Positions 10,389 to 53,160 of a stretch of 64,000 bases of DNA are shown here, in pieces. The translations under genes and the position numbers were made by a program. Positions within the stretch are counted from its first letter, which is position 1. Each line of letters begins with the position of its first letter. The stretch is from Arthrobacter sp. Leaf337 (GTDB taxonomy: Bacteria; Actinomycetota; Actinomycetes; Actinomycetales; Micrococcaceae), in assembly GCF_001423745.1 (NCBI RefSeq), contig NZ_LMPC01000031.1:62474-126473 (forward strand), written 5' to 3'. Under the pieces are notes generated by a model. That model did not search any database, was not told where the DNA came from, and worked only from the letters and a program-made list of their open reading frames with translations.

Positions 10389-10436
10389 GGGGTTCTCCAT
10401 TGTGGGTCTCTCGGTGTCTCTCAGTGTCGGTAGTGG

Positions 10437-11273
10437 TCAGTGGCCGAAGGTATCTGAATCGAGGCGCGGCGGGGCGCCGGTCTCCAGTGCATTGATGGCG
10501 GCCAGCTGGTCCGCTGTCAGCTCAAAGCCGAAGACGTCCAGGTTCTGCCGCTGACGGGTGTCGCTGGCGGACTTCGGTGTGGCGATGCGGCCCTGCTGGA
10601 CATGCCAGCGGAGCACGATCTGCCCGGGCGTCCTGCCGAGCTCCGGCGCCGCTCCGGTAATGGCCGGGCTGGCCAGGAAGTCGCCGTTGCGGCCGAGCGG
10701 GCTGTACGCACCGGTGGCAATGCCGTGCTCGCGGTGGAAGGCCAGCTGTTCAGGCTGGCCGTGGGCGGGGTCCACCTGCACCTGGTTGACCGGCACCGTA
10801 AGTCCGGCTCTTTCCACTGCAAGCAGGTGGGCGGGCTTGAAGTTGGAGACGCCCCAGGCGCGGATGACGCCGTCGTCCGCCAGCTGCTGGAGGCCTTCGC
10901 AGGCCTCGACGAACCGGCCCTGCGCGGGGTTGGGCCAATGGACCAGGAACAGGTCCAGGTAATCCACGCCGAGTCGGGCCGCCGAGCGTTCAAAAGCGGT
11001 GCCGACGCCGTCCCGGCTGTGCCAGTCCCGGTTGAACTTGGTGGTGATGAAGATGTCCTGCCGGGCGATGCCGCTGCGCCGGATGCCCTCCCCCACCGCC
11101 TCTTCATTGCCGTAGTTCTCAGCAGTATCGATGTGCCGGTAGCCGTTGTTGATGGCGCGGTTCACGGCATCCGCGGCTTCCTCCCCCACCATCGGCCAAG
11201 TGCCCAGCCCGATCAGCGGAACGTGGACGCCGGGGGCAAGCTCCGTCGTCGTGCTTTCCAGTACTTCGCTCAC
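10437..11273 (-). CDS. aldo/keto reductase
   Basis: A 278-residue TIM-barrel NADPH-dependent carbonyl reductase. The catalytic tetrad can be read as D48, Y53, K78 and H111 (HIDTAENYG, TTKF and LVHWP motifs), and the C-terminal cofactor region contains ATPKSAS. The GTG start at 11273 overlaps the stop of the isomerase gene by four bases (GTGA), so translation is probably coupled. It lies between a TIM-barrel isomerase and a KstD-like flavoprotein, which suggests reduction of an aldehyde or ketone made by the same pathway. The substrate is not predictable from the sequence. Confidence 0.88.
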   Translation of the reverse strand: MSEVLESTTTELAPGVHVPLIGLGTWPMVGEEAADAVNRAINNGYRHIDTAENYGNEEAVGEGIRRSGIARQDIFITTKFNRDWHSRDGVGTAFERSAARLGVDYLDLFLVHWPNPAQGRFVEACEGLQQLADDGVIRAWGVSNFKPAHLLAVERAGLTVPVNQVQVDPAHGQPEQLAFHREHGIATGAYSPLGRNGDFLASPAITGAAPELGRTPGQIVLRWHVQQGRIATPKSASDTRQRQNLDVFGFELTADQLAAINALETGAPPRLDSDTFGH

Positions 11274-40138: not shown

Positions 40139-40861
40139 ATGGCCCACATCTGCCTGCTTCTCTCCGGGGCCGCGCTCCTGCTCAACGGCCTCGCCGCGTT
40201 GGATCTCCTCCCCCGCCGGGATGCGGCCGTGTTCAGCCTGGTCATCGGCAGCACCCAGCTGGTCCTCGCCGTTGCGTACCTGGGGATTACCGGCGACGGG
40301 GTCCTGCACCTGTTGCTCGAGGCATCCGGGATGTTCCTGTTCGGGCTGACCTACGTCTACGTCGGGTTGGATTTCCTGCTGGAACTCGGGTCCCGGGGCC
40401 TTGGCTGGTTCTGCGGGATGGTGGGCGCGTGCGGCCTCCTGCTCGCCGCTGCCTGGTCCGGGGAGGACCCACTCCTGGCCGTACTCTGGCTCTGCTGGAC
40501 GTACCTGTGGCTGCTGTTCTTCCTGCAACTGGCCCTGGGGTTCCAGCGACTCACGCCGCTCATTGGCTGGTCCCTGGTCCTCACGAGCCAGGCATCGGCC
40601 ACGGTCCCGGCGCTCCTGGGCGTCACGGGGCGCTGGCCCAATGATCCCGAGACGGCGACGACGGCGGCGGGCGCCGCAGCCGCGCTGGCCGTACTCCTGC
40701 TGCTGGCCGGCTGCCTCGCGTGGCGGGCCGGCCCGGCCCCCACGCGCAGGCGCGGGCGGCAAACCGCCGCCCGCGCCGTTGCGGATCCCGCCGCCGTCGG
40801 CTCCTCCGTTGTCTGTTCTGATGTCCCAGACAGACTGCTACCCGGCGAACTCAAGCTCTGA
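40139..40861 (+). CDS. AmiS/UreI family channel-like membrane protein
   Basis: A 240-residue protein with six hydrophobic helices in the first 200 residues. Segments such as LLLSGAALLLNGL, FGLTYVYVGLDFLL, LGWFCGMVG and LAVLWLCWTYLWLLFFLQL resemble the AmiS/UreI family of proton-gated urea and short-chain amide channels. After the last helix comes a hydrophilic tail of about 40 residues not usual for the family. Its final 24 bases overlap the end of the convergent APC permease gene. Next to glutamate dehydrogenase and ammonium genes, urea or amide uptake is plausible. No urease or amidase gene is in the window. Confidence 0.75.
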   Translation: MAHICLLLSGAALLLNGLAALDLLPRRDAAVFSLVIGSTQLVLAVAYLGITGDGVLHLLLEASGMFLFGLTYVYVGLDFLLELGSRGLGWFCGMVGACGLLLAAAWSGEDPLLAVLWLCWTYLWLLFFLQLALGFQRLTPLIGWSLVLTSQASATVPALLGVTGRWPNDPETATTAAGAAAALAVLLLLAGCLAWRAGPAPTRRRGRQTAARAVADPAAVGSSVVCSDVPDRLLPGELKL

Positions 40862-42313
40862 CGCCCGGATCTGCTTCTCCACCCGGATCTCCACCAGGAC
40901 GCCGGCCAGGAACAATGCGGGGACGGCCGCCAGCAGGCCCACGGCCGTTTCCGTGCTGCCTCCGATGAGGGACGTGAAGTTGCTGACCACCAGGTACAGC
41001 ACCCACGCCAGCAACACGGAAGCCAGCACCGGGGCGATGAACGTCTGCCATTGCTGACCTGTCACCTTTTCCCGGCGGAAATAGGCGACGACGGCAAGGG
41101 AGGACAGCATGTACAGCACCAGCAGTGCCGCGACGGCGAGGCCGCTGAACCAGGAGAAGAGGGTCAGCACCGGGTCCAGCCCCAGCAGCGCGAACGGTGC
41201 CACCAGCAGGACAGCCACCACTGTCTGGATCCAGGCCGCCGCAGCCGGGGCGCGGTGCTTGTTGGTCCGGGCAATGACTGCCGGCATGGAGCCGCGCAGG
41301 GCCAGCGAGTGCAGGTAGCGGTTGATGCCGTTGTGGAAGGCAATGATGCCTGCCAGAAGCGAGGTCACCAGCAGGATTCCGGCGGTGATCCCTGCCCAGG
41401 GTCCGAACATTTCAACGATGGGGCCGATCACGAACGATGTGGCGTCACCCGATTCCAAGGCTGCACCCGCAGCATCCACCACGTGGGAGGGCCCGTAGAA
41501 ACTGACCAGCATCCAGGTGATGAAGGAGAAGAAGACAGCGATGATGCCCACGGACAGATAGGTGGCCCGTGCAACCGTCCTGTGCGGGTCCTTGGCTTCC
41601 GCGGAGTAGATGGCCGTGGATTCGAAACCGAACATGGAGGCCACCGCGAACATGATGGCGACGCCGGGGGCTCCGCTGGCGATGGCTTCGGGAGCGAACG
41701 ACGCGGCGAAGTCGAGCCCTTCGGGGCCGCCGCCGTGGAACAGCACGGAGAATCCGAACATCAGCAGGATCGCCACTTCCAGGCCCACCAGGACAGCCAG
41801 GACACGGGCACCGAGCTCGATGTTCTTGGATCCCAGGACCTGGACGCCCGCCATGGTGATTACGGCGAGCAGCCACCACGGAACAGTCATTCCAGCGGAT
41901 GCCAGCAGGCCGGAGAACGCCGCTCCGTACAGCCCGTACATGGCCGCCTGCACGGTGCTGTAGGCCAGCAGGGCAAGCCAGGCCGCTCCGGCACCGGTCT
42001 TGCGTCCGAACGCCGCGGTCACGTAGGCGTAAAAGGCGCCGTTGGTCTGCACTTTCCGGCTCATGGCCACGAAGCCGACGGCGAAGATGACAATGACGAT
42101 GCCGACCACAAGGTAGGCACCCGGTGCGCCGGCGCCGTTGCCGAGCGCGGCCGCGAGCGGCGCGGCTCCCACGATGCCGGTCAGCGGGGCCTGGGCGGAG
42201 AGGACAAAGAACAGGATGCCCAGGACTCCGATGCTTCCTGCGCGCAGGGCGGTGGAGTGTTCCTGGCGGGAACCGGGTTCTGCGGTCCGGGGTTCGGGAT
42301 TCGAAATACTCAT
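40838..42313 (-). CDS. APC family amino acid/amine permease
   Basis: A 491-residue transporter with about twelve helices. The first helix contains the APC pattern GSIGVLGILFFVLSAQAPLTG, and helix 6 contains FGFESTAIYSAEAKDPHRTV. ATG 42313 with AAGGA upstream is preferred; the frame further upstream is non-coding in character. The gene is divergent from an aldehyde dehydrogenase and lies between amine oxidase and glutamine synthetase-like clusters, so an amine or amino acid substrate (for example putrescine, methylamine or ethanolamine derivatives) is possible, but this is inference. Confidence 0.87.
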   Translation of the reverse strand: MSISNPEPRTAEPGSRQEHSTALRAGSIGVLGILFFVLSAQAPLTGIVGAAPLAAALGNGAGAPGAYLVVGIVIVIFAVGFVAMSRKVQTNGAFYAYVTAAFGRKTGAGAAWLALLAYSTVQAAMYGLYGAAFSGLLASAGMTVPWWLLAVITMAGVQVLGSKNIELGARVLAVLVGLEVAILLMFGFSVLFHGGGPEGLDFAASFAPEAIASGAPGVAIMFAVASMFGFESTAIYSAEAKDPHRTVARATYLSVGIIAVFFSFITWMLVSFYGPSHVVDAAGAALESGDATSFVIGPIVEMFGPWAGITAGILLVTSLLAGIIAFHNGINRYLHSLALRGSMPAVIARTNKHRAPAAAAWIQTVVAVLLVAPFALLGLDPVLTLFSWFSGLAVAALLVLYMLSSLAVVAYFRREKVTGQQWQTFIAPVLASVLLAWVLYLVVSNFTSLIGGSTETAVGLLAAVPALFLAGVLVEIRVEKQIRASELEFAG

Positions 42314-42640
42314 TGGATCCTTCTTAACGGTCATGAGTGCTGGGGAAAAGAGCTGGCGGGAAATTCGTGGTCCAGTTGCCGGGCCCGGGCAAAGGTGCCC
42401 GTGAGCTGCACCGTGAAATCCAGCATGGCAGTCGCCGCCGGACCCGGCTTGTCGTGCAGCGATCAGTTGTTGTTCCTGAGCGCAGTGTGGTTCAGGTTGC
42501 GGGCAGCACGTACTGTTCGCCACCGGTCAAGTGCCGTACGCGGATACACAAGACCCGCGGCGCCTGGCGGAGCACGCTTAAAGCAGCGCTGTTAGGCCGT
42601 TCCGGCCGCGTTCTCTGACCTACTCGAAGTGGAGTACCCC
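42314..42640. other. 327-base divergent intergenic region
   Basis: It lies between the APC permease and aldehyde dehydrogenase genes and must hold both promoters. A CCTGA...TCAGG inverted repeat at about 42475-42495 is the only symmetrical element I noticed; the XRE-cupin regulator encoded at 44100 is a candidate binder. No gene or RNA was seen. Confidence 0.35.
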
Positions 42641-44050
42641 ATGGAAACCTACGATGCCCTGCTGGCCTCGATCACCCCGGATACCGGCGAAACCCGTACC
42701 ATCCTGGACCCTGCCACCGGGGAACCCGTGGGCGAGGCGCCGGTCCACAGCGTCCAGGACCTCGAGGCGGCCATCGCCGCCGCGGCAGCCGCCCAGCCCG
42801 CGTGGGCAGCCCTGGGCCACGACGCCCGGAGCGCCGCGCTCCTCAAAGCCGCCGACGCCGTCGAACGTTCCGCCGAAGAACTCGCCCGGTTGCTCTCCCG
42901 CGAGCAGGGCAAACCGCTGAACGGTCCCAACGCCCGCTTCGAAGTGGGCGCCTGCGCCGCGTGGCTGCGCGTCGCCGCCGGCACGCCGCTGGACCCGGAA
43001 ACCGTGGTGGACGACGGCGAAACGCGCGCCGAGCTGCACTACCGGCCCATCGGCGTCGTGGGCGCGATCGGCCCGTGGAACTGGCCCATGATGATCACCG
43101 TCTGGCAGATCGCCCCCGCCCTGCGGATGGGAAACGCCGTGGTGGTGAAGCCCTCCGAATACACGCCGCTCTCCGTCCTGGCGCTGGCTAAGGTCCTCAA
43201 CGAGGAACTGCCGGAAGGCCTCCTGACCGTGGTCTCCGGCGGGCGCGACGTCGGAGCCCGGCTGGCCGAACACCCCGCGATCGGCAAGGTCATGTTCACC
43301 GGCTCCACCGCCACCGGCAGGGCGATCATCAAATCCTCCGCGGACACCGTCAAGCGCCTCACCCTGGAGCTCGGCGGGAATGACGCCGGCATCGTGCTGC
43401 CCGACGCCGATCCCAAAGCCATCGCCGAAGGCCTCTTCTGGGGCGCCTTCATCAACACGGGCCAAACCTGCGCCGCCCTCAAACGCCTCTACGTCCACGA
43501 TTCTCTGTATGAAGCCGTGTGCGAGGAGCTCACCAAGGTGGCCGCCGCGATGCCCATGGGCAACGGCCTGGACGAGAACAACGTCCTGGGCCCGCTGCAG
43601 AACCGGCAGCAGTACGACATCGTGGCCCGGCTCGTCGAGGCCGCCCGCGACTCCGGCGCCCGCATCCTGCTCGGCGGCAACCCGGACACGGACCAGCCCG
43701 GACACTTCTACCCCGCCACCCTCGTGGCGGACATCGACAACGGCAACCCGCTGGTGGCCGAGGAGCAGTTCGGCCCGGCCCTGCCGATCATCCGCTACGG
43801 CACCGTGGACGAGGCTGTCACCATGGCGAACGCGCTCGACGTCGGGCTCGGAGCCTCCGTCTGGTCCCCAGACCCCGCCAGGGCACGCGAGGTGGCCGTC
43901 CGCCTCGAGGCCGGCACGGTGTGGATCAACAAGCACGGCGCCGTGGACCCGCGCATCCCGTTCGGCGGCGCCAAGCAGTCCGGCTACGGCCTGGAATTCG
44001 GCGTCGAAGGCCTCAAGGCCCTGGGCGTGCCGCAGGTGATCAACGGCTGA
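42641..44050 (+). CDS. aldehyde dehydrogenase family protein
   Basis: A 469-residue NAD(P)-dependent aldehyde dehydrogenase. Catalytic residues are N147 (PWNWP), K170, E243 (LELGGN) and C277 (NTGQTC). The sequence around the active site is of the AldA-like, short ALDH group and does not fix the substrate. ATG 42641 has GGAG upstream. It is divergent from an APC permease and followed by a terminator. It could oxidise aldehydes from amine oxidation (for example phenylacetaldehyde), since the FeaR-controlled pathway needs such a step. Confidence 0.9.
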   Translation: METYDALLASITPDTGETRTILDPATGEPVGEAPVHSVQDLEAAIAAAAAAQPAWAALGHDARSAALLKAADAVERSAEELARLLSREQGKPLNGPNARFEVGACAAWLRVAAGTPLDPETVVDDGETRAELHYRPIGVVGAIGPWNWPMMITVWQIAPALRMGNAVVVKPSEYTPLSVLALAKVLNEELPEGLLTVVSGGRDVGARLAEHPAIGKVMFTGSTATGRAIIKSSADTVKRLTLELGGNDAGIVLPDADPKAIAEGLFWGAFINTGQTCAALKRLYVHDSLYEAVCEELTKVAAAMPMGNGLDENNVLGPLQNRQQYDIVARLVEAARDSGARILLGGNPDTDQPGHFYPATLVADIDNGNPLVAEEQFGPALPIIRYGTVDEAVTMANALDVGLGASVWSPDPARAREVAVRLEAGTVWINKHGAVDPRIPFGGAKQSGYGLEFGVEGLKALGVPQVING

Positions 44051-44063
44051 GTTGCGTGCTTGG

Positions 44064-44100
44064 AAACGGTGTCCCGCCTTCAGAGGCGGGGCACCGTTTT
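44064..44100. terminator. two-way terminator between the aldehyde dehydrogenase and XRE-cupin genes
   Basis: AAACGGTGTCCCGCCT (44064-44079) pairs with AGGCGGGGCACCGTTT (44084-44099) with one G-U pair and a four-base loop, followed by a T. The AAA on the left arm gives a T-run in the other direction too. Confidence 0.85.
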
Positions 44101-44720
44101 CACTTCGCGGCGATGGCCAAGAACCTGATGGGCAGGTCCAGCAGTTCCAGCGGGCCGTGGGGGCCTTCGCCGTCGAGAAGCAGGGAGTCTCCGGCCTCCA
44201 TGGTGTATTCGTACGCGCCGTGGCCGTAGACCATCCTGCCGGAGAGCATGTAGATGAATTCGGTGCCGGGGTGTTGGAACAGCGGGAAGACGTCGGAGGC
44301 GTCCGTCAGCGTTACCAGGGTCGGTTCGAGGGCGTCGGTGCGGCCTTTCAGGGTGCCCAGCACACGGTACTCGTGGCCGTGCTGTGTACCGCTCCGGACG
44401 GTCAGGCTGCCCTGGCCGTTCTTGGTGAAGGTGGCATCACGGTCCGTGTCGGCGCCCCTGAAGAGCGCGGTGACGGGTATCTTCAGCCCATCTGCCAGCC
44501 GCTGCAAAGTGGTCAGCGAACAGGACGTGCTGGCGGATTCGATTTTGGAGATCATCGCCTTGGACAGTCCGGTCCTGACGGCGAGTTCGGCGGACGAGAG
44601 CCCGTTCGTGGTCCGGTAGTGGCGGACCTGCCCGGCGATGACCCGCTCAAGTTTGCCGGGCCCCTCGTCAGCCGCGGACCGGTCGGCTGCGGCTCTTTCG
44701 TCGCCAGTCTGGTTCGTCAT
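44100..44720 (-). CDS. XRE family regulator with C-terminal cupin domain
   Basis: A 206-residue regulator. The N-terminal helix-turn-helix (about residues 25-80, LAVRTGLSKAMISKIESA) is followed by a cupin domain (about 130-200, with FQHPGTEFIYMLSGRMVYGHG and the EAGDSLLLD turn). This architecture (as in PuuR and SutR-type proteins) often controls amine and amino acid breakdown genes. It precedes the leftward amine cluster's end and is convergent with the aldehyde dehydrogenase gene. It likely represses part of this cluster. Confidence 0.87.
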   Translation of the reverse strand: MTNQTGDERAAADRSAADEGPGKLERVIAGQVRHYRTTNGLSSAELAVRTGLSKAMISKIESASTSCSLTTLQRLADGLKIPVTALFRGADTDRDATFTKNGQGSLTVRSGTQHGHEYRVLGTLKGRTDALEPTLVTLTDASDVFPLFQHPGTEFIYMLSGRMVYGHGAYEYTMEAGDSLLLDGEGPHGPLELLDLPIRFLAIAAK

Positions 44721-44765: not shown

Positions 44766-46022
44766 CTACCCGAGCCTCCGGGCTTCACCCACCAGGCCTG
44801 CCAGGGTGTCGGCCAGGGCCCGGGCTCCTGCTTCCGCGTCGGCATCCTCCACCAGCTCCTCGGGCGAATGTGAAATGCCGGTGGGGTTCCGGACGAACAG
44901 CATCGCGGTGGGGATGTGGCCGGCGAGCACACCGGCGTCGTGCCCGGCTCCGGTATCCAGGACCGGCGCATCCGGGAGCAGGGTCCGGAGCTGGTCCCGC
45001 AGGCCGGTGTCGAAGTGCACGGTGGGGCTCAGTGATTCGACGCCGAAGCTCACCGTGCACCCTTCCTCGGCGGCTATGACCTGGGCGTTAAGGTGGATGG
45101 ATTCCACCAGGGCTGCTGTCACTTCGTCCCGCGGGTGCCGGACGTCGATCCACATATCCACCCGGGAGGCGATCACATTGGTTCCGCCGGGCACAGGCTG
45201 CATCCGGCCGACGGTGGCCCGAGCGTCCTTGTAGTTCCTGGCGGTGTCCCGGATGCCGATCATGATTTTGGCTGCGGCAATCATCGGATCCCTCCGGTCC
45301 TTCATGAGCGTAGTTCCGGCGTGATTGCCCTGGCCGGTCACCGAGAGCTTCCACCGGCCGTGGCCCAGGATGGAGGAGCCGATGGCCACCGGCTGGCGAA
45401 GGTCGATGAGGCCCCTCCCCTGTTCGACGTGGAGTTCCACGAACAGACCCAGCTGCTGGAGGGTTTTGTGGTCAGCGCCGATGAACCGGGGGTCCTGCCC
45501 GTTGGCCGCGGCCACGTCGGCGTAGGTGTTGCCGTCCGCGTCTTTGAGGTTGCGCGCCTTGTTCGGGTCCACGGCGCCGGTGAGCAGCCGGGAGCCCAGG
45601 CAGGCGACGCCGAAGCGGGAGCCTTCCTCTTCGGGGAAGACGGCGATTGCCAGGGGCTTCCGGGGGCGGAGGCCCCGGTTCTTCAGGATGTCGAAGGCGA
45701 CCAGCGCCGACGCCACACCCAGGGGACCGTCGTACTCGCCGCCGCCGGGGACGGAATCGAGGTGGCTTCCGGTGACGACGGCGTCCCTGCGCGTGCCAGT
45801 GGCAGTGTCCCACCAGGCCCAGATGATCCCGTTGTTGTCCGTGGTGACGTCCAGCCCGCGCCGCCCGGCCTGCTCGATGAACCAGCTCCGCAGGTCGGTT
45901 TCGGCGTTCGAGAAGACCGGGCGGGAGTATCCGCCGCGGCGCGAGTCTGTGCCGACGCCGGAGATGTCCCGCATCAGGCCGGCGACGGTGTCGGTTGCAG
46001 GTTTGGTCGCAGGAGAGGTCAC
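44766..46022 (-). CDS. M20 family Zn-dependent hydrolase (allantoate/N-carbamoyl amino acid amidohydrolase type)
   Basis: A 418-residue binuclear zinc amidohydrolase. Metal-binding segments are TGSHLDSVPGGGEYDGPLGV, FPEEEGSRFG and ELHVEQG, with TGAGHDAG and NPTGISHSPEE near the end; these are typical of the hydantoinase/carbamoylase and AllC group. The GTG at 46022 overlaps the stop of the oxidase gene by four bases, so the frame up to 46148 is not used. In this operon it might cleave an N-carbamoyl or N-acyl amino acid, or a gamma-glutamyl-type amide. The exact substrate is unknown. Confidence 0.87.
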   Translation of the reverse strand: MTSPATKPATDTVAGLMRDISGVGTDSRRGGYSRPVFSNAETDLRSWFIEQAGRRGLDVTTDNNGIIWAWWDTATGTRRDAVVTGSHLDSVPGGGEYDGPLGVASALVAFDILKNRGLRPRKPLAIAVFPEEEGSRFGVACLGSRLLTGAVDPNKARNLKDADGNTYADVAAANGQDPRFIGADHKTLQQLGLFVELHVEQGRGLIDLRQPVAIGSSILGHGRWKLSVTGQGNHAGTTLMKDRRDPMIAAAKIMIGIRDTARNYKDARATVGRMQPVPGGTNVIASRVDMWIDVRHPRDEVTAALVESIHLNAQVIAAEEGCTVSFGVESLSPTVHFDTGLRDQLRTLLPDAPVLDTGAGHDAGVLAGHIPTAMLFVRNPTGISHSPEELVEDADAEAGARALADTLAGLVGEARRLG

Positions 46023-47179
46023 GGGCTGGTCCGTTCTAGGAGTGTGGTTGCCGGGCGGAAGCGGGCCGGAACGTCGGCGGCGCCGGTGGCCAGGCCTGCC
46101 GCCCACTGCCCGATCAGCGGCGCGAACTTCGCACCGTGCCCCGAGCACGGGGACAGAATGGTGATTCCGTCCGCCCGGTCGACGAGGAAGTCGTCATGAG
46201 GCGTGTTGGTGAACAGGCATGTGGTCTCGGCATACGGTTCCGGGTCAAGACCGGGGAGGTACTTCTGCACGTAGTCCACCACCCGTCGCCGGTTGTCCGG
46301 GTCCACCAGGCCGGTTTGCTCGGCGGCAGACGGGATCAGGCCGCCGCCGTTGTACTCGGCCACCTTCTGCCCGGCAAAGCCGGCATCCCGCCCGCCGGGC
46401 AGTCCATAGGTCTGGATGGCGGCACTCTTGTGGATGAACGTGGGCCAGGCGGCGCCGTCCGGATCGCGGTAGCGGAAGTGGAAGGCCTGCTCCTGCCGGA
46501 CGGTGATCTCCGGCAGTCCGGCAAGGAACCCTGCCGGGAGATCCAGCTGTCCCAGCAGTGAAGGCAGCCAGCCGCCGGCGCTCACAACGACGTTCCCGGC
46601 GTCAATCGCTTCTCCTGCTGCCGAGTGCACACGGTAGCCGGTGCCCCTCCGTTCCACGCGGGCGACGTTCCAGCCGGTCAGCAGCCTGGCTCCCTGCTTC
46701 ATCGCCTGGTTGATCATGGCGTTGACCGAGCTCTCGGCGTCGATCACCCCGGCGCCCGGGTGCCAGAGCACCGGGGTGTCGAAGGAGAACTGCGGCCACC
46801 GCTCCCGAGCCTCAGCCGCGCTGAGGAGTTCGTGCTCCACGCCGGCGCCGGCGAGGACCCGGGCGAGATGCTCCGGCTGCCTCTCCGGGCCGTAGTCCAC
46901 GGCGCCGAAGGGGGTGATCAGATGCAGTCCGCTGGCCCGGTCCAGTTCGTCCCAGAGAACCTTGGACTCCTGGACCGCCCGCGTGTAGAACTCGTCCGGG
47001 TAGGCGTAGCGGAAGATCCGGGCCGAGCCGTGGGAGCTGCCGTCATGCGCTGCCGGGACTGAGCGCTCCACGATGGTGACGTCGTGGCCCTGCAGGGCGA
47101 GCTGCCAGGCGGTGGCAGCGCCGGCCAGGCCAGCGCCCACCACCACAAAGTCTGACGAGTCAGGAAAAGCGTCAGTCAT
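46019..47179 (-). CDS. FAD-dependent amino acid oxidase, monomeric sarcosine oxidase/N-methyl amino acid oxidase type
   Basis: A 386-residue flavoprotein of the MSOX/MTOX (SolA) family, which oxidises N-methyl amino acids to the free amino acid, formaldehyde and H2O2. The FAD motif GAGLAG is at 15-20, the conserved HGSARIFRYAY at 50-60 and the covalent-flavin cysteine is C321 in TTCLFTNTP, followed by the FLVD and SGHGAKFAP motifs. The ATG at 47179 shares one base with the stop of the glutamate synthase-like gene (TGATG). Its placement suggests that it oxidises the product made by the upstream synthase, for example N-methylglutamate. Confidence 0.87.
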   Translation of the reverse strand: MTDAFPDSSDFVVVGAGLAGAATAWQLALQGHDVTIVERSVPAAHDGSSHGSARIFRYAYPDEFYTRAVQESKVLWDELDRASGLHLITPFGAVDYGPERQPEHLARVLAGAGVEHELLSAAEARERWPQFSFDTPVLWHPGAGVIDAESSVNAMINQAMKQGARLLTGWNVARVERRGTGYRVHSAAGEAIDAGNVVVSAGGWLPSLLGQLDLPAGFLAGLPEITVRQEQAFHFRYRDPDGAAWPTFIHKSAAIQTYGLPGGRDAGFAGQKVAEYNGGGLIPSAAEQTGLVDPDNRRRVVDYVQKYLPGLDPEPYAETTCLFTNTPHDDFLVDRADGITILSPCSGHGAKFAPLIGQWAAGLATGAADVPARFRPATTLLERTSP

Positions 47180-48537
47180 CACTGTGCTCCCGGGATCCAG
47201 CTGGTTCCGGCGAGGGGAACGCGTGCCATGGCGGACGCTTCGATGGTCAGTGCCACGAGGTCCTCGGGTTCGAGGTTGTGCAAGTGGGACTTGCCGCATG
47301 CCCGGGCGATGGTCTGGGCTTCCATGGTCAGGACGCGCAGGTAGTTGGCGAGCCGGCGGCCGCCCTCGACCGGGTCCAGGCGGGAGGAGAGTTCCGGGTC
47401 CTGGGTGGTGATGCCGGCGGGGTCGCGGCCGTCCTGGAAGTCGTCGTAGTAGCCGGCGGCCGAGCCCAGGGCTGCGTATTCGGCGGCGTAGCGGGGATCG
47501 TTGTCGCCCAGTGCGATCAGCGCCGCGGTGCCAATGGCCACCGCATCGGCACCGAGGGCCATGGCCTTGGCGACGTCGGCTCCCGTGCGGATGCCGCCGG
47601 AAACGATGAGCTGGACCTTCCGGTGCACACCCAGCTCCTGGAGCGCCTGGACTGCCTGCGGGATGGCGGCCAGGGTGGGGATCCCCACGTTTTCGATGAA
47701 GACCTGCTGCGTGGCGGCGGTGCCCCCCTGCATGCCGTCGACGACGACGACGTCGGCTCCGGCCTTCACGGCCAGGGCGGTGTCGTAGTACGGGCGGGAC
47801 GCGCCGATCTTGACGTAGATCGGGGTCTTCCAGTCGGTGATTTCGCGCAGTTCGCCGATCTTGATTTCCAGGTCGTCCGGGCCGGTCCAGTCCGGGTGGC
47901 GGCTGGCGGAGCGCTGGTCGATGCCGACCGGCAGGGTGCGCATCCCGGCGACGCGTTCGGTGATTTTCTGGCCCAGCAGCATGCCGCCGCCACCCGGCTT
48001 GGCGCCCTGGCCGAGCACGATCTCGATGGCGTCCGCCTTGCGCAGGTCGTCAGGGTTCATGCCGTAGCGGGAGGGCAGGTACTGGTACACGAGGTGCTTG
48101 GACTGGCCTCGCTCCTCAGGCGTCATGCCGCCGTCGCCCGTTGTTGTGGAGGTGCCCACCTCGCTGGCGCCGCGTCCCAGCGCTTCCTTGGCGTTGGCCG
48201 AGAGCGCACCGAAGCTCATGCCCGCGATGGTCACCGGGGTCTGCAGGTGCAGCGGCCGGCTCGCGTGCCGGTCGCCGAGGACGACGTCGGTATCGCACTT
48301 TTCGCGGTAGCCCTCCAGCGGGTAGCGGGACATGGAGGCGCCGAGGAACAGCAGGTCATCGAAGTGCGGGACCTTGCGCTTGGCACCCCAGCCGCGGATG
48401 TCGTACACGCCGGTTGCGGCCGCGCGCTGGATGTCCGCGATGGTGGCGCGGTCGAACGTTGCCGATTCGCGCAGGCCGAGCGCATCGATGTCCTGGGCGG
48501 GAGCCTGGGCGGGGGCGGGCAGTGAGGTGATGGTCAT
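47179..48537 (-). CDS. glutamate synthase-like FMN subunit (GlxD/MgsC type), Fe-S cysteines replaced
   Basis: A 452-residue stand-alone FMN-barrel homologue of the central part of glutamate synthase. Typical segments are SFGALSANAKEAL, EIVLGQGAKPGGGGML and VDGMQGGTAAT. In N-methylglutamate synthase the related MgsC subunit forms the active site. The stretch that normally holds the three [3Fe-4S] cysteines is replaced by ALGDNDPRYAAEY..., with the following GITTQDPEL retained; only two Cys are present in the whole protein (about residues 81 and 425). So the protein appears to lack the cluster. It is co-directional and almost contiguous with the GXGXG, amidotransferase and ligase genes. Confidence 0.85.
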   Translation of the reverse strand: MTITSLPAPAQAPAQDIDALGLRESATFDRATIADIQRAAATGVYDIRGWGAKRKVPHFDDLLFLGASMSRYPLEGYREKCDTDVVLGDRHASRPLHLQTPVTIAGMSFGALSANAKEALGRGASEVGTSTTTGDGGMTPEERGQSKHLVYQYLPSRYGMNPDDLRKADAIEIVLGQGAKPGGGGMLLGQKITERVAGMRTLPVGIDQRSASRHPDWTGPDDLEIKIGELREITDWKTPIYVKIGASRPYYDTALAVKAGADVVVVDGMQGGTAATQQVFIENVGIPTLAAIPQAVQALQELGVHRKVQLIVSGGIRTGADVAKAMALGADAVAIGTAALIALGDNDPRYAAEYAALGSAAGYYDDFQDGRDPAGITTQDPELSSRLDPVEGGRRLANYLRVLTMEAQTIARACGKSHLHNLEPEDLVALTIEASAMARVPLAGTSWIPGAQ

Positions 48538-48547
48538 GGGGTTGTCC

Positions 48548-49294
48548 TTAGTACGACGTCGAGTTGTGGACGCTGAAGTGGTAGAGGTTCCGTGCCGATC
48601 CGTAACGCCTGAAGTCCGCAGGGTTGTCGGTGCGGCCGGCCGCGGCCAGCAGTTCGCCGAGTTCAGCCAGGTGCTCGTCCTTCAGGGGCTTTTCGATGCA
48701 GTCCGCGCCGAGCGAGGCCACGGTGCCCTTGACGTAGATCCGGGCTTCGTAGATCGAGTCGCCCAGCGCTTCGCCCGCGTCACCGCAGACCACCAGGCGT
48801 CCGGCCTGCGCCATAAACGCGGACATGTGGCCGATGTTGCCTCCCACCACGATGTCCACTCCCTTCATCGAGATGCCGCAGCGGGCGCTGGCGTTGCCGT
48901 CGATGACCACGAGCCCGCCATGCCCGGTGGCGGCGGCCGACTGGGAGGCGTCGCCCTTGACATGGACGCGGCCGGACATGATGTTCTCTGCCAGTCCGAC
49001 GCCGGCATTGCCGTTGATGGTCACGTCGCCTTTTTGGTGCATCCCGGCCGCGTAGTAGCCGGCGTGGCCGTTGATGGTGACCGTGACGTCCGTGTTGATG
49101 CCCACGGCCAGGCTGTGCTTGCCTTCGGGGTTGGCGACGGTCCAGGACTGCCCGTCCACAGCGTTGTGGAGGGCCTGGTTGAGTTCGCGAACGGGGCTGC
49201 CGGCCAGATCCACGCTGAAGGAATCAGCGCTGACGGCGGGCCGGGTTGCTTCGGCGTTCATCGTGCTGGTTTCGGGGGCTGTCAGAGTGACCAT
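48548..49294 (-). CDS. glutamate synthase GXGXG-domain subunit (GlxC/MgsB type)
   Basis: A 248-residue protein equivalent to the C-terminal beta-helix of glutamate synthase alpha subunit. The repeated GxxGxxxG-type turns (TINGHAGYYAAG, TINGNAGVGLAENIMSG, VIDGNASARCG, VVGGNIGHMSAFM) are characteristic. It is structural, helping to hold the ammonia tunnel between amidotransferase and FMN parts. ATG 49294 with AAAGG upstream overlaps the amidotransferase stop by 13 bases. Confidence 0.87.
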   Translation of the reverse strand: MVTLTAPETSTMNAEATRPAVSADSFSVDLAGSPVRELNQALHNAVDGQSWTVANPEGKHSLAVGINTDVTVTINGHAGYYAAGMHQKGDVTINGNAGVGLAENIMSGRVHVKGDASQSAAATGHGGLVVIDGNASARCGISMKGVDIVVGGNIGHMSAFMAQAGRLVVCGDAGEALGDSIYEARIYVKGTVASLGADCIEKPLKDEHLAELGELLAAAGRTDNPADFRRYGSARNLYHFSVHNSTSY

Positions 49295-50190
49295 GTGTAG
49301 ACCTTTCCGGGTTCCGGTTCAAAGATGCGGGCGTTTTCGATGCCGGGCAGGGCTGCCAGGGCACGGTATTCGGAGGCCATAGCCACGTAGTCGTCCGTTT
49401 CGGCGATGATGGCCGGCTTGCAGGCGATGGGGTCCCGGACCACGGCCATGCTGTCCGCGGTGGTGACCACCAGTGTGTAGAAACCGTCCAGGACCTTGCC
49501 CAGGTTCACGAGCGCCTCTTCGAGGGTGTCACCCTGCTGCAGGCGGGAGGCGACGTAGCGGGCGCCCACCTCAGTGTCGTTTTCGGAATCGAACACCACG
49601 CCCTCGCGTTTGAGGTCGCGGCGGACGGTGGCGTGGTTGGAGAAGGAGCCGTTGTGGACCAGGCACAGGTCGTCGGCCACGGAGAACGGGTGGGAGCCGC
49701 CGGCGGTCACGGCGGACTCGGTGGCCATCCGGGTGTGGGACAGGCCCTGGCTGCCTGACATGGCCTCGAGCCCGTGCTCGGCGGCGATGTCCATCGGGTG
49801 GCCCACGCTCTTCATCACGGCCACGTGCTCGCCGCGGCCAATGATGGTGGAGCCCGGAAGGGTTTCGCTGACCGCTTTCACCAGGAGATCGGTTCCGACG
49901 GCGGCGCTCACCAGGGTGGTGTCACCCACCACGCGTACTGCGGCGGCGGCATCGGCCGGAAGCATCGCGTCAAGGGAGGCCTTGACCTCCGGGAGGGCAA
50001 TGCCCTGGTCCTTGCCCAGCAGGCTGAGGGTGGAGGTTCCGGCCGAGACCAGGCCGGGGGTGTTGTAGACGGCGAGGCCGGCTGAATCCGGTCCGCGGTC
50101 CACGATCTGGCACATCATGGAGGACAGCAGGCTGCCCATCTGGGGGTGCAGCAGGGGGTTGCGCAGCTGCAGCGCGGCGATTCCGCACAT
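49282..50190 (-). CDS. class II glutamine amidotransferase subunit (GlxB/MgsA type)
   Basis: A 302-residue Ntn-type amidotransferase. The N-terminal MCGI exposes the catalytic Cys after Met removal; DRGPDSAG, SHTRMATES and LVHNGSFSNH are the usual glutamine-binding and oxyanion segments. In this gene set it corresponds to the N-terminal domain of glutamate synthase and would release ammonia or methylamine from a gamma-glutamyl amide. It follows the ligase gene after 29 bases. Confidence 0.9.
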   Translation of the reverse strand: MCGIAALQLRNPLLHPQMGSLLSSMMCQIVDRGPDSAGLAVYNTPGLVSAGTSTLSLLGKDQGIALPEVKASLDAMLPADAAAAVRVVGDTTLVSAAVGTDLLVKAVSETLPGSTIIGRGEHVAVMKSVGHPMDIAAEHGLEAMSGSQGLSHTRMATESAVTAGGSHPFSVADDLCLVHNGSFSNHATVRRDLKREGVVFDSENDTEVGARYVASRLQQGDTLEEALVNLGKVLDGFYTLVVTTADSMAVVRDPIACKPAIIAETDDYVAMASEYRALAALPGIENARIFEPEPGKVYTWSL

Positions 50191-50219
50191 GGTGGGATTC
50201 CTTTGCTTAGTGGAGGTTG

Positions 50220-51614
50220 CTAAATCGAGGTGAGGTACGTGCGGATTTCCCAGTCGCTGACCTGGTTGTGCCAGCTGAGGAATTCCTCTTCCTTGGCGTC
50301 CGCGTAGTACTTGCCGATCTCCGCGTCGCCGCTGAGGCTGGCCAGGATCACCGGGTCCCGGCGGAGGGCCTCCACGGCGTGCAGCAGGGTGGCCGGCAGC
50401 AGGTGGGCGTCGGGTTTCGACTCGCCCGGGCCCGACGGGTGCCCCGGATCCGCCGACTTTTCCACGCCGTCCAGGCCTGCCGAGATGGCCGTGGCAATGG
50501 CGAGGTAGGGGTTGGCTGAACCGTCACCCGAGCGAAGTTCGATCCGTTTGTTGTCCGGGACGCGGATCATGTGCGTGCGGTCGTTGCCCCCGAACGAGGC
50601 CTTCCGGGGAGACCAGGTGGCACCGGACGAGCTGGTGGTGGCGCCCGAGCGCTTGTACGAATTGACGGTGGGGGCCAGGAATGCCTGCAGTGCCGGCGCG
50701 TGGTCCAAAATGCCGCCGATGAAGGAGTAGGCGAGGGCCGAAAGCCCAAGTCCCCTGCCGCCGTCGTCCGCTCCGTTGTCAACCGGGAACAGCGCCTCGG
50801 CGCCGGACCACAGCGACAGATGGAAGTGGAGGCCCGTGCCCGTGCGGTCGGTGAAGGGCTTGGGCATGAAGGTGGCGGTCATGCCGCGCTGTTCGGCGAG
50901 GACATTCAAAATGTAGCGCAGGGTGACCACGCGGTCGGCCGTGGTGAGGGCGTCGGCGTAGTTGAAGTTCTGCTCGAACTGCCCGGCGGCGTCCTCATGG
51001 TCGTTGGCGTAGTTGCCCCAGCCCAGGCCGTTCATTGCCTCCGAGATGGAGGTGAGGTGCTCATACATGCGGGTGACGCCGCGTGCGTCGTAGCAGGGGC
51101 GGGGCGAGTCATCGCGGGGGTCGGCCGTGCTCAGGGAACCGTCGGGGTTCTTGTTGACGAGGAAGTACTCCACTTCCGCACCCACCTTCGCCTGCATTCC
51201 CTGACCGGCGAGGCGGGCGAGCGTGTTTTTGAGGATGATGCGCGGGGCGTAGGGCCAGGGCTTGCCGTCCACGTGCGGGTCGCAGTGGATGACCGCGAGC
51301 CCTTCCTTGATGAACGGCACGGGTGTGAAGGACGCCAGATCAGGAATGGCGATGAGGTCCGAATCCTGCGGCTTCTGCCCGATCAGCCCTGCTGCGTAGC
51401 CGGCAAAGCCCATGGCGCCGGCCTCAAGCTGCTCTGCGGCTTCGACCGGAACGAGCTTGGCGCACGGCTTGCCCGTCATGTCGACGAACGTGGCCAGGAG
51501 GAACCGCACATCATGGGCCCTGGCGATGTCCGCGAGGGAGATGTGGTCAGTCTCGGCCGGCAACGCGGCAGTTGATAGGGCTGAGGCGCTTGGTACTTCA
51601 GGGTTTTGCGACAC
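50220..51614 (-). CDS. type III glutamine synthetase-like ligase (GlnT/gamma-glutamylmethylamide synthetase type)
   Basis: A 464-residue glutamine synthetase fold protein. Motifs include KVGAEVEYFLVNK (metal-binding Glu), TGLHFHLSLW, APTVNSYKR and the ATP-binding and substrate Arg segment RVPDNKRIELRSGDGSANPYL. The group contains GlnT and GmaS, which join glutamate to ammonia or to methylamine and other alkylamines. Directly upstream of three glutamate synthase-like subunits, a gamma-glutamylamide synthetase role is favoured. The GTG at 51614 is the best available start but has no close ribosome site. Confidence 0.85.
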   Translation of the reverse strand: MSQNPEVPSASALSTAALPAETDHISLADIARAHDVRFLLATFVDMTGKPCAKLVPVEAAEQLEAGAMGFAGYAAGLIGQKPQDSDLIAIPDLASFTPVPFIKEGLAVIHCDPHVDGKPWPYAPRIILKNTLARLAGQGMQAKVGAEVEYFLVNKNPDGSLSTADPRDDSPRPCYDARGVTRMYEHLTSISEAMNGLGWGNYANDHEDAAGQFEQNFNYADALTTADRVVTLRYILNVLAEQRGMTATFMPKPFTDRTGTGLHFHLSLWSGAEALFPVDNGADDGGRGLGLSALAYSFIGGILDHAPALQAFLAPTVNSYKRSGATTSSSGATWSPRKASFGGNDRTHMIRVPDNKRIELRSGDGSANPYLAIATAISAGLDGVEKSADPGHPSGPGESKPDAHLLPATLLHAVEALRRDPVILASLSGDAEIGKYYADAKEEEFLSWHNQVSDWEIRTYLTSI

Positions 51615-51645
51615 TGGTCATCGGAACTGTCCTGTTCAATTTGGT

Positions 51646-51817
51646 GTTACCTGCTGGGAAACGTTGTTGAACCACAGTAGTCAAAAGGATGTTACAGGCG
51701 TGCGCCCCGCTTGTTAAATCGGGGTGACGTGCCCAATCGCGATCGCAACCGGAAATTTACGCCCGCGAAACCCACGATCGTTCACTGTCACGAATCATGG
51801 TTTCATCCCACGGTTAC
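51646..51817. promoter_or_regulatory. divergent ligase/AmtB promoter region with GlnR-like half sites
   Basis: GTTAC (51646-51650) followed by GAAAC (51658-51662), a lone GTTAC (51691-51695), and GTTTC...GTTAC (51800-51817) resemble GlnR elements (gTnAC-n6-GaAAC), but the spacers are seven and eight bases, not six. The region lies between two nitrogen genes, so nitrogen control is expected. Confidence 0.25.
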
Positions 51818-51870
51818 TTTTTTGTGCCGCCGTTTCCCCTGGCGGACACCCCTTTTCTGATTGGAGTTCC

Positions 51871-53160
51871 ATGAATTCTGGAGACGTCGCCTGGATCCTC
51901 GCCGCGGGCGCACTGTTGTGCATCATGATCCCCGGCCTTGCCCTGTTCTACGGAGGTATGGTCGGGTCCCGCAGGATCCTGAACATGATGATGATGTGCT
52001 TCGGCGGAATGAGCATCGTGGCCGTCCTGTGGGCCGTGTTCGGCTACTCCATGGTCTTCGGCAATTCCATCGGTGGCGCCGGACTCCTCGGTGATGTCAC
52101 CGAGTACTTCGGCATGGAGAAATTGCTGGCCGAGGACCCGAACGCGCCCATCCCCACGGCCCTGTTCGCAGCCTTCCAGCTGTTCTTTGCCGGCATCACC
52201 ACGGCAATCATCGCCGGAGCTGCCGCCGGACGAATGAAGTTCGGCGCATGGATGACCTTCGCCGCCCTCTGGGCCACCCTGGTCTACTTTCCCGTCGCCC
52301 ACTGGGTCTTCGCCTTCAGCTCGGCGGACGGCTCGGTGACCGGCGGCTGGATCGTCAACAGCCTCAAGGCAATCGACTTTGCCGGCGGTACCGCTGTCCA
52401 CATGAACGCCGGAGTCGCCGCCCTCGCCCTCGCCCTGGTCCTCGGACGCAGCGCCGGCTGGCCCAAGAGCGAACACACCAAACCCCACAGCCGCCCGCTC
52501 GTGCTGGTGGGCGCCGGGCTCCTCTGGGCTGGATGGTTCGGCTTCAACGCGGGGTCTGCACTCACCGCTGGCCAGTCCGCATCCGTGGTATTCCTCAACA
52601 CCGCCGTCGCCGCGTGTGCCGGCCTGCTCGCCTGGACGCTCGTGGAACGCATCCGCCTGGGCAGCGCCAGCAGCATGGGCGCCGCCTCCGGCCTGATCTC
52701 GGCCCTCGTCGCCATCACTCCTGCCTGCGGCGCCGTCAGCCCCCTGGGCGCCCTGGCCATCGGCCTCATCGCCGGCGCAGTCTGCTCGCTGGCCATTGAG
52801 CTGAAGTTCCGGCTCGGCTTCGACGATTCACTCGACGTGGTGGGCGTCCACCTGGTGGGCGGCATCCTGGGAACCCTCCTGATCGGCTTCTTCGCCACCG
52901 AGGCCGCCCCCAACAAGGTGAACGGCCTGTTCTACGGCGGCGGCTTTGAGCTCCTCGGGATCCAGACGGTCGCCACGCTGGCCGTACTCGCCTACTCCTT
53001 CGTGGTTACGTGGATCATCGCCAAGGTCCTCAACATGACCATGGGCCTGCGCATCCACGAGGCCGATGAACTGCGCGGCATCGACATCGCCGCGCACTCC
53101 GAGGCCGCCTACCTCAGCGACGAAGAGCCCGTGGAACTCGGTTCGCCCCACCGCGCCTAA
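51871..53160 (+). CDS. amtB: ammonium transporter AmtB family
   Basis: A 429-residue channel with eleven hydrophobic helices. The signature FYGGMVGSRRILN and the conserved His and Phe in FAGGTAVHMNAG and FNAGSAL belong to the ammonium conducting pore; a short charged C-terminal tail ends the protein. The ATG follows TTGGAG. It is divergent from the gamma-glutamylamide synthetase gene. It probably imports ammonium or methylammonium, which would feed the amide ligase. I see no glnK/PII gene nearby, although amtB is often paired with one. Confidence 0.93.
   Translation: MNSGDVAWILAAGALLCIMIPGLALFYGGMVGSRRILNMMMMCFGGMSIVAVLWAVFGYSMVFGNSIGGAGLLGDVTEYFGMEKLLAEDPNAPIPTALFAAFQLFFAGITTAIIAGAAAGRMKFGAWMTFAALWATLVYFPVAHWVFAFSSADGSVTGGWIVNSLKAIDFAGGTAVHMNAGVAALALALVLGRSAGWPKSEHTKPHSRPLVLVGAGLLWAGWFGFNAGSALTAGQSASVVFLNTAVAACAGLLAWTLVERIRLGSASSMGAASGLISALVAITPACGAVSPLGALAIGLIAGAVCSLAIELKFRLGFDDSLDVVGVHLVGGILGTLLIGFFATEAAPNKVNGLFYGGGFELLGIQTVATLAVLAYSFVVTWIIAKVLNMTMGLRIHEADELRGIDIAAHSEAAYLSDEEPVELGSPHRA

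Follow-up and report, generated by a model that had tools for sequence, protein, structure and literature searches.

The closest described system to the operon reported here is the N-methylglutamate pathway. In the parts of the literature on this route that we draw on, gmaS and the mgs genes are paired with mgdABCD or soxBDAG. Aminobacter carries mgsABC-gmaS-mgdABCD (PMC11446756, in part), and the SAR11 route comprises glnT, glxBCD and soxBDAG, with a monomeric sarcosine oxidase gene, SAR11_1304, listed and its role left open (PMC3160333, in part). A figure legend for R. pomeroyi names amtB, and dmmABC is covered in the same paper (PMC5520151, in part). Among Actinobacteria, Mycobacterium sp. 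141 and 155 have Gma-MgsABC with MgdA-D assigned to unlinked genes, and the three Arthrobacter strains of that study have no Gma-MgsABC (PMC5023230). Here we describe an operon from Arthrobacter sp. Leaf337 that lies within a 64,000-nucleotide stretch of contig NZ_LMPC01000031.1 (positions 62,474 to 126,473 of the forward strand; hereafter the window), on contig 31 of 31 in a genome of 5.2 Mb. We consider it likely that this operon encodes an actinobacterial variant of the N-methylglutamate pathway for the use of methylamine, mainly as a nitrogen source.

The operon shares with the proteobacterial pathway its ligase, the three synthase subunits and a nearby ammonium transporter gene. It differs in having a single-chain oxidase of the monomeric sarcosine oxidase (MSOX) kind and an additional M20 amidohydrolase, and PurU is missing from the flanks of 19 of 19 named loci with an MSOX-type oxidase. 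That the oxidase replaces MgdABCD is well supported by linkage. Neither this replacement nor the M20 step is described in the parts of PMC5023230, PMC3160333, PMC5520151 and PMC11446756 considered here, and a literature search whose coverage left out most subscription journals found no assignment of N-methylglutamate oxidation to a single-chain oxidase.

A conserved operon in Arthrobacter

The operon runs on the minus strand from 51614 down to 44100. Its first gene (50220..51614) encodes a GmaS/GlnT-type ligase (GSIII), a probable gamma-glutamylmethylamide synthetase that matches TIGR03105 with 580 bits (cut-off 470). The three synthase subunits follow in order, each with profile matches: an MgsA-like Ntn glutamine amidotransferase (49282..50190; GATase_6/7, with an N-terminal MCG that holds the Ntn cysteine), an MgsB-like GXGXG subunit (48548..49294; PF01493, 38.9 bits, cut-off 32.5) and an MgsC-like FMN subunit (47179..48537; Glu_synthase, 309 bits). 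Downstream are the MSOX-like flavin oxidase (46019..47179; DAO, 164 bits), a probable N-methylglutamate oxidase, and the M20 amidohydrolase (44766..46022), a probable N-formyl-L-glutamate deformylase with a likely GTG start overlapping the oxidase stop. The last gene (44100..44720) encodes a PuuR-like XRE-cupin regulator with HTH_3/HTH_31 and Cupin_2 domains, which scores 37 bits against the PuuR model (cut-off 211). Diverging from the operon on the plus strand is an ammonium transporter gene (51724..53160, likely ATG near 51871; PF00909, 384 bits), a plausible entry route for methylammonium.

An initial annotation of this DNA had named the ligase, the MgsABC set, the oxidase, the M20 protein and a divergent AmtB, and all of these are present. 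Its description of six genes in tight order also stands, with overlapping junctions, although it had missed the regulator as a seventh gene. The FMN subunit and oxidase genes have TGATG in common, the oxidase and M20 genes GTGA, and the amidotransferase and GXGXG genes overlap by 13 bases. The stop/start overlaps on either side of the oxidase suggest that oxidase and hydrolase are likely translated together with the synthase.

The same annotation had proposed comparing this gene order across the genus. We searched 121 genomes of the genus for GSIII at a set limit and found a match in 25, one of which (G010) has a distant copy only and another (G100) a distant copy besides a close one; these distant copies have about 41-43% identity and no adjoining MgsABC match. 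Around the close copies we examined 23 stretches, the window itself being left out of the count. GSIII and MgsABC occur in all 23, the oxidase and M20 in 20, the XRE-cupin gene in 22 and the transporter in 20. One of the three stretches that lack the oxidase (L057) is a contig end. Chromosomal neighbours of the operon vary between groups of the genus, and the presence of all six genes in 20 of 23 stretches, in several different chromosomal neighbourhoods, argues that their association is not due to chance. The peripheral genes are looser: the XRE-cupin gene does not adjoin M20 in L046 and L053, and the transporter gene is divergent or downstream, lying 6 kb away in L053.

Presence and absence of the oxidase follow the operon. 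Among 45 genomes of the genus, of which 24 have a close operon and 21 do not (20 listed genomes plus G010), an ortholog of the oxidase with 67-100% identity is found in 24 of 24 versus 0 of 21, remaining matches having at most 39% identity (one-sided Fisher p ~3e-13, kinship uncorrected). The match in G083 spans one TAG. M20 is likewise present in all 24 operon genomes (72-100% identity), and in G058, G091 and G093, where the oxidase ortholog lies away from the operon, it is still paired with M20. In G093, GSIII (L057, 3828-5080) and M20 (L175, ~9700-10890) are each found in two pieces or frames, whether through decay or sequencing error, and the oxidase is whole; urease-like frames were seen by eye upstream of that oxidase.

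A single-chain oxidase as the probable replacement of MgdABCD

Among solved chains, phmmer ranked sarcosine oxidase first (7exs, 148 bits; 1el5, 116), then N-methyltryptophan oxidase (106) and NikD (80). We aligned the window's oxidase with 42 others of the operon type (20 from genus operons, 19 from named loci and three from separate pairs). In MSOX numbering, C315, K265, R52, R49, H45 and K348 are kept in all 43; we take C315 to be the site of the covalent flavin, K265 to activate O2, and R52 and K348 to bind the carboxylate. C321 of the window's enzyme, which the initial annotation had picked out as its covalent-flavin cysteine, aligns with Cys315. The operon oxidases thus resemble the MSOX, N-methyltryptophan oxidase and NikD family in sequence, in the covalent Cys and in K265, R52 and K348, but differ in forming their own clade, in the changes H269 to Y, Y317 to F, F342 to C and E247 to K, and in falling below the curated cut-offs of the family. 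K247 is found in 41 of the 43, the two aligned sarcosine oxidases having E or D there, and we would guess from the alignment that it could be a ligand for the gamma-carboxylate.

Operon-type oxidases form one clade (SH-aLRT 99) within which those linked to M20 are nested as a single clade (97), long branches being flagged in this tree. M20-linked oxidases carry a Y269/F317/N319 set. All 30 rows classed as M20-linked have Y or F at position 269; of the 12 others, nine have H, two Y and one F, and one of these 12, L175, actually has the split M20 downstream. L104 has Y269 and F317 with no M20 in its flanks. Because the M20-linked oxidases are one clade, the change at 269, 317 and 319 may have been a single event and carries no weight as a test. 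The oxidase family also has another context: on a Streptomyces cadmiisoli plasmid, a relative with 41% identity (L204, 8920-10047) stands beside a protein with a Glu/Leu/Phe/Val dehydrogenase domain and a SolA-like gene, in a stretch that has no annotated GSIII.

To see more widely what fills the oxidase position, we scanned with the FMN subunit and classified the best 80 of at least 593 confirmed stretches, a set of named loci biased towards close relatives, by tblastn with reference proteins. An MSOX-like oxidase is found in 19, another single-chain FAD enzyme in 45, a SoxB-type enzyme in eight and no recognised oxidase in eight, and none of the 80 has two kinds together in its flanks. The FAD enzyme is a SoxB-like single chain, two examples of which score 134 and 151 bits against TIGR01373 (cut-off 529), and it is apparently another replacement of MgdABCD. 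It occupies the oxidase place in L073 (11311-12507), L071 (5312-6499) and 43 other loci, and these belong to mycobacteria, Gordonia, Nocardia and Rhodococcus. The mycobacterial loci seen here mostly have this enzyme after MgsC, unlike the Mycobacterium sp. 141/155 cluster, which resembles the present operon in its actinobacterial ligase and MgsABC in consecutive genes but has its MgdA-D assigned to a distant set. If two kinds of single-chain flavoenzyme fill the oxidation step in Actinobacteria, surveys that require mgdABCD or borrow an unlinked soxBDAG would misplace that step.

The survey also covered companion genes of each oxidase class. M20 is in the flanks of 8 of 19 MSOX-type and 14 of 45 FAD-type loci and of no SoxB-type (0/8) or oxidase-less (0/8) locus, so that M20 as a marker of the MSOX type alone was rejected. 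PurU is found in 6 of 8 SoxB-type and 2 of 45 FAD-type loci, and in none of the 19 MSOX-type or eight oxidase-less ones.

Ligase and synthase

GSIII is much closer to solved gamma-glutamylmethylamide synthetases (RhGmaS 7cql, 388 bits; glutamate-methylamine ligase 9qur, 328) than to glutamine synthetase (184), which bears out its earlier designation as GlnT/GmaS-like. Long enough rows for alignment came from 95 of 103 loci, 86 of them actinobacterial and nine from other phyla, with the catalytic and pocket residues of RhGmaS as reference (PMC7948447, in part). The catalytic D177, E186 and R312 and the pocket residues K30, Y147 and Y174 are all retained in GSIII, and these, together with E122, E124, E179 and N188, are shared by all 86 actinobacterial ligases. 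The two GlnA-like genes of the genome and a paralog on contig C29 carry H177 and E174 instead. On the solved-structure scores and the GmaS residues, we judge it unlikely that GSIII is a true glutamine synthetase. The distant GSIII copies of G100 and G010 (L058 and L059; ~41% identity) have a transporter gene near, no MgsABC match, S at the site of Q175 and N at 237; they are perhaps another amine ligase.

The Puu putrescine pathway also combines a GS-like ligase, a DAO-family oxidase and, by the weak match of the XRE-cupin protein, a similar regulator. We rejected it, since the operon ligase reaches only 212 bits against the gamma-glutamylputrescine synthetase (GGputSyn) model, well below its cut-off of 650. 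To our knowledge MgsABC has no place in that pathway.

At the three columns that hold the 3Fe-4S cysteines in the genome's own GltB, the FMN subunit has D, A and D, in a loop aligned with a long gap that makes the columns approximate. Cysteine occurs at the first of these columns in five, at the second in none and at the third in two of 103 related sequences, and anywhere in the loop in 10 of 104. An MgsC without these ligands fits a redox-neutral exchange at FMN and not an NADPH glutamate synthase; such an exchange was reportedly described for N-methylglutamate synthase by Pollock and Hersh.

Methylamine as the likely substrate

We propose that methylammonium would enter the cell, possibly through the ammonium transporter, and would be joined to glutamate by GSIII with ATP, giving gamma-glutamylmethylamide. 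MgsABC would then transfer the methylamino group at its FMN to an acceptor of the 2-oxoglutarate type, and the resulting N-methylglutamate would be oxidised at its N-methyl group by the single-chain enzyme, with covalent FAD and O2, yielding H2O2 in place of the reaction of four-subunit MgdABCD. The XRE-cupin protein would control the operon. That a single-chain MSOX-like enzyme fills the oxidation step of a GmaS-MgsABC operon had been suggested by the initial annotation and is supported here.

Methylamine is the probable substrate, on the evidence of related clusters. A gene for an HODM/Dmm-like protein (haem-dependent oxidative N-demethylase) stands beside 12 of 45 FAD-type and 2 of 8 oxidase-less loci, beside none of the eight SoxB-type loci and none of the 19 MSOX-type ones, and the link to methylamine therefore comes from related clusters and not from MSOX-type ones. 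In L074 this gene is a PF11927 member (227 bits, Pfam), and in L073 the neighbouring reductase has Fer2 and a DmmA-like domain. A EutQ-like cupin (one checked) accompanies several HODM-bearing clusters; EutQ also appears with methylated-amine genes in part of PMC5023230. Five loci from Gordonia and Nocardioides (L068, L073, L081, L083 and L100) have two HODM-like and two reductase genes arranged in tandem next to the ligase cluster, and these genes may act on two methylated amines. On the plasmid of Streptomyces NBC_01320, a gene for S-(hydroxymethyl)mycothiol dehydrogenase directly follows an oxidase 46% identical to the window's, and close copies are near the FAD-type loci L115 and L118.

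Several observations count against this pathway. The oxidase misses the curated cut-offs of SolA (NF008425; 226 vs 257 bits) and of the monomeric amino oxidase model TIGR01377 (soxA_mon; 190 vs 480 bits), so that its substrate is not given by family. Eight of the 80 named loci show no recognised oxidase, the fetched flanks of 33 of 45 FAD-type and all 19 MSOX-type loci have no HODM-like gene, and PF11927, the dimethylamine monooxygenase family, has no match in the host genome, for which a dimethylamine step was accordingly rejected. A close mycothiol dehydrogenase is found in the flanks of none of the 11 MSOX-type named loci that lack M20. A SoxD is present in the host genome, the co-occurrence counts ignore relatedness, and the actinobacterial ligases have Ala in place of Q175 in the amine pocket of RhGmaS, which could mean another amine.

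This last point leads to an alternative that we regard as unlikely, in which another primary amine (ethylamine, isopropylamine or an amino alcohol) is handled by the same chemistry and a longer aldehyde is released from an N-alkylglutamate. All 86 actinobacterial ligases have Q175 to A and W189 to F, and RhGmaS accepts ethylamine and propylamine (PMC7948447, Table 1). An aldehyde dehydrogenase also lies beside the operon in the window, in L035 and in Sinomonas L066. However, all 13 actinobacterial ligases encoded near Dmm-like genes, whose expected product is methylamine, carry the same Ala, so that Ala alone is no argument against methylamine. The formaldehyde-oxidising mycothiol enzyme, encoded within an MSOX-type operon in one case and close to FAD-type clusters in two, also speaks against a longer alkyl group, and a hydrolase acting on formylglutamate fits a one-carbon group only.

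The M20 amidohydrolase and a possible formate branch

The amidohydrolase is, as had been noted from the sequence, a step with no counterpart in the known N-methylglutamate route. It matches NF006770 (allantoate amidohydrolase) with 610 bits (cut-off 372) and the model of the N-carbamyl-L-glutamate amidohydrolase ErtE with 269 (cut-off 520). These matches are what favour an allantoate amidohydrolase or an N-carbamoyl amino acid hydrolase in a general nitrogen-scavenging operon, an alternative to which we give a low probability. The NF006770 name aside, the operon, to which this search was confined, has no gene for allantoin breakdown, and the same model also takes M20 proteins encoded directly next to HutF and close to HutU, a setting that calls for an N-formylglutamate deformylase.

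Further M20 copies, with 67-70% identity to the window's, are found in nine genus genomes, five of them among the 21 without the operon, so that a tie of M20 to the operon alone was rejected. In nine of nine loci (L190-L198) the gene next to these copies falls in one cluster with the neighbour in L190, where profile scans identified formimidoylglutamate deiminase (HutF, 545 bits) and urocanate hydratase (871 bits), with a histidase-like match below cut-off. The M20-HutF pair also occurs in L206 (Arthrobacter StoSoilB13) and in L203 (Nonomuraea), the latter with HutU nearby; in L190 and L203 the M20 bears the NCBIfam name allantoate amidohydrolase. The deformylase family PF05013, found in Caulobacter among 14 control genomes, has no match in the nine M20-HutF genomes and one in the 45-genome set, arginase-type HutG not having been searched. 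The HutF-linked M20 is thus probably a misnamed N-formylglutamate deformylase, judging by its neighbours and relatives.

Nine genomes of the genus without PF05013 thus have close relatives next to HutF, an adjacency that holds for these relatives and not for the window's M20 itself. We accordingly read the operon protein in the same way, with N-formyl-L-glutamate as its probable substrate, and this agrees with the related model for N-carbamyl-L-glutamate hydrolase. In sequence the two are close: 132 columns are conserved across all three groups of M20, operon M20 of the MSOX type differ consistently from hut M20 at 7 of 402 columns, none charged, and the hut M20 group as a single clade (100) that falls among the operon M20 at a support of 84, below the 95 mark. 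Compared with histidine utilisation through HutF, the operon has a close M20 relative with nearly the same conserved columns but links it to an oxidase rather than to HutF. N-formylglutamate deformylase is the better reading of this amidohydrolase, and it alters what the pathway would probably yield.

The pairing of an N-formylglutamate hydrolase with an N-methylglutamate oxidase points to oxidation of the methyl group up to the formyl level while it is still attached to glutamate. For operons with M20, this one included, we propose that the oxidation would lead to N-formylglutamate and that M20 would cleave this to glutamate and formate. We tentatively consider, as a possibility well short of probable, a formaldehyde-free route in which the oxidase would take two two-electron steps, through imine and carbinolamine to N-formylglutamate, and M20, shared with histidine breakdown, would free glutamate and formate; Y269/F317/N319 would be the mark of such oxidases. 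NikD, of the same family as MSOX, carries out a four-electron oxidation. In operons without M20, formaldehyde would presumably be released and handled by other enzymes. The M20 step may let the cell release formate rather than toxic formaldehyde. When 105 loci, 42 of them with M20, were searched for the mycothiol dehydrogenase, no M20-bearing locus had a close copy; weak zinc-dehydrogenase matches (29-34%) in L078, L101 and L140, the first two with M20, were not counted. With close copies in NBC_01320, L115 and L118 alone, this contrast is drawn from three cases. A literature search, again with most subscription journals outside its coverage, found no paper combining 'N-formylglutamate' with 'N-methylglutamate'. 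The operon is real and conserved and the formate branch is a testable proposal: through the M20 link one could test concretely whether cells draw nitrogen from methylamine without setting formaldehyde free, and the same link suggests what a family listed by NCBIfam as allantoate amidohydrolase may do.

SoxBDAG elsewhere in the genome and ammonia assimilation

The initial annotation had stated that MgdABCD is absent. This is true of the operon, which no such frames adjoin, but not of the genome, where contig C3 has a SoxBDAG-type set: SoxD by profile, the sole SoxD match of the genome, a SoxB-like subunit by its clustering with other SoxB, and alpha and gamma subunits by eye. That this set oxidises N-methylglutamate, leaving some other N-methyl amino acid as the substrate of the MSOX-like enzyme, is in our view quite improbable. 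All 40 genus genomes tested have SoxD (TIGR01374), whether or not they have the operon, and this makes the argument from a missing MgdABCD weak in the host genome, and in part of PMC5023230 the mycobacterial MgdA-D is assigned to an unlinked set of the same kind. Yet a SoxD found equally in operon-less genomes does not track the operon, and the MSOX-like oxidase does. Outside the genus we searched 40 genomes behind the named loci (17 MSOX-type, 20 FAD-type, plus L067, L108 and L122). No SoxD match was found in 6 of 17 MSOX-type genomes (L069, L082, L085, L089, L104 and L120) or in 17 of 20 FAD-type ones, genome completeness not being given for either group; of the other three, L067 has none, L108 has one and L122 has one below cut-off. 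The model does detect delta subunits linked to such clusters (L122, 1e-24; L134, 5e-16). The argument from absence of MgdABCD holds in those six of 17 MSOX-type genomes of other taxa.

Ammonia assimilation by an ordinary glutamine synthetase and glutamate synthase, to which the adjacent AmtB and the NCBIfam name of GSIII ('type III glutamate--ammonia ligase') might point, is very improbable given a pair of glutamine synthetase genes with stronger matches on contig C9 (PF00120, 448 and 418 bits), a GltB with 3Fe-4S cysteines in the genome, the GmaS pocket of GSIII and the cluster ligands missing from MgsC.

Neighbouring genes and plasmid-borne relatives

Two further genes neighbour the operon in the window. 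An APC permease (40838-42523) is not counted as part of it and was dropped as a member of the pathway, occurring with the cluster in one of the 23 genus stretches (L035). The aldehyde dehydrogenase (42629-44050) has a copy of at least 60% identity with the cluster in the same single stretch, and one of 80% identity beside the transporter gene in Sinomonas L066; distant aldehyde dehydrogenases (38-40%) are near four genus clusters. Finally, the FMN subunit is encoded in 243 plasmid records, most of which are named as Rhizobium (138), Sinorhizobium (28) or Acinetobacter (20), and the one R. phaseoli plasmid record that we examined has soxBDAG, glnT and purU beside it.

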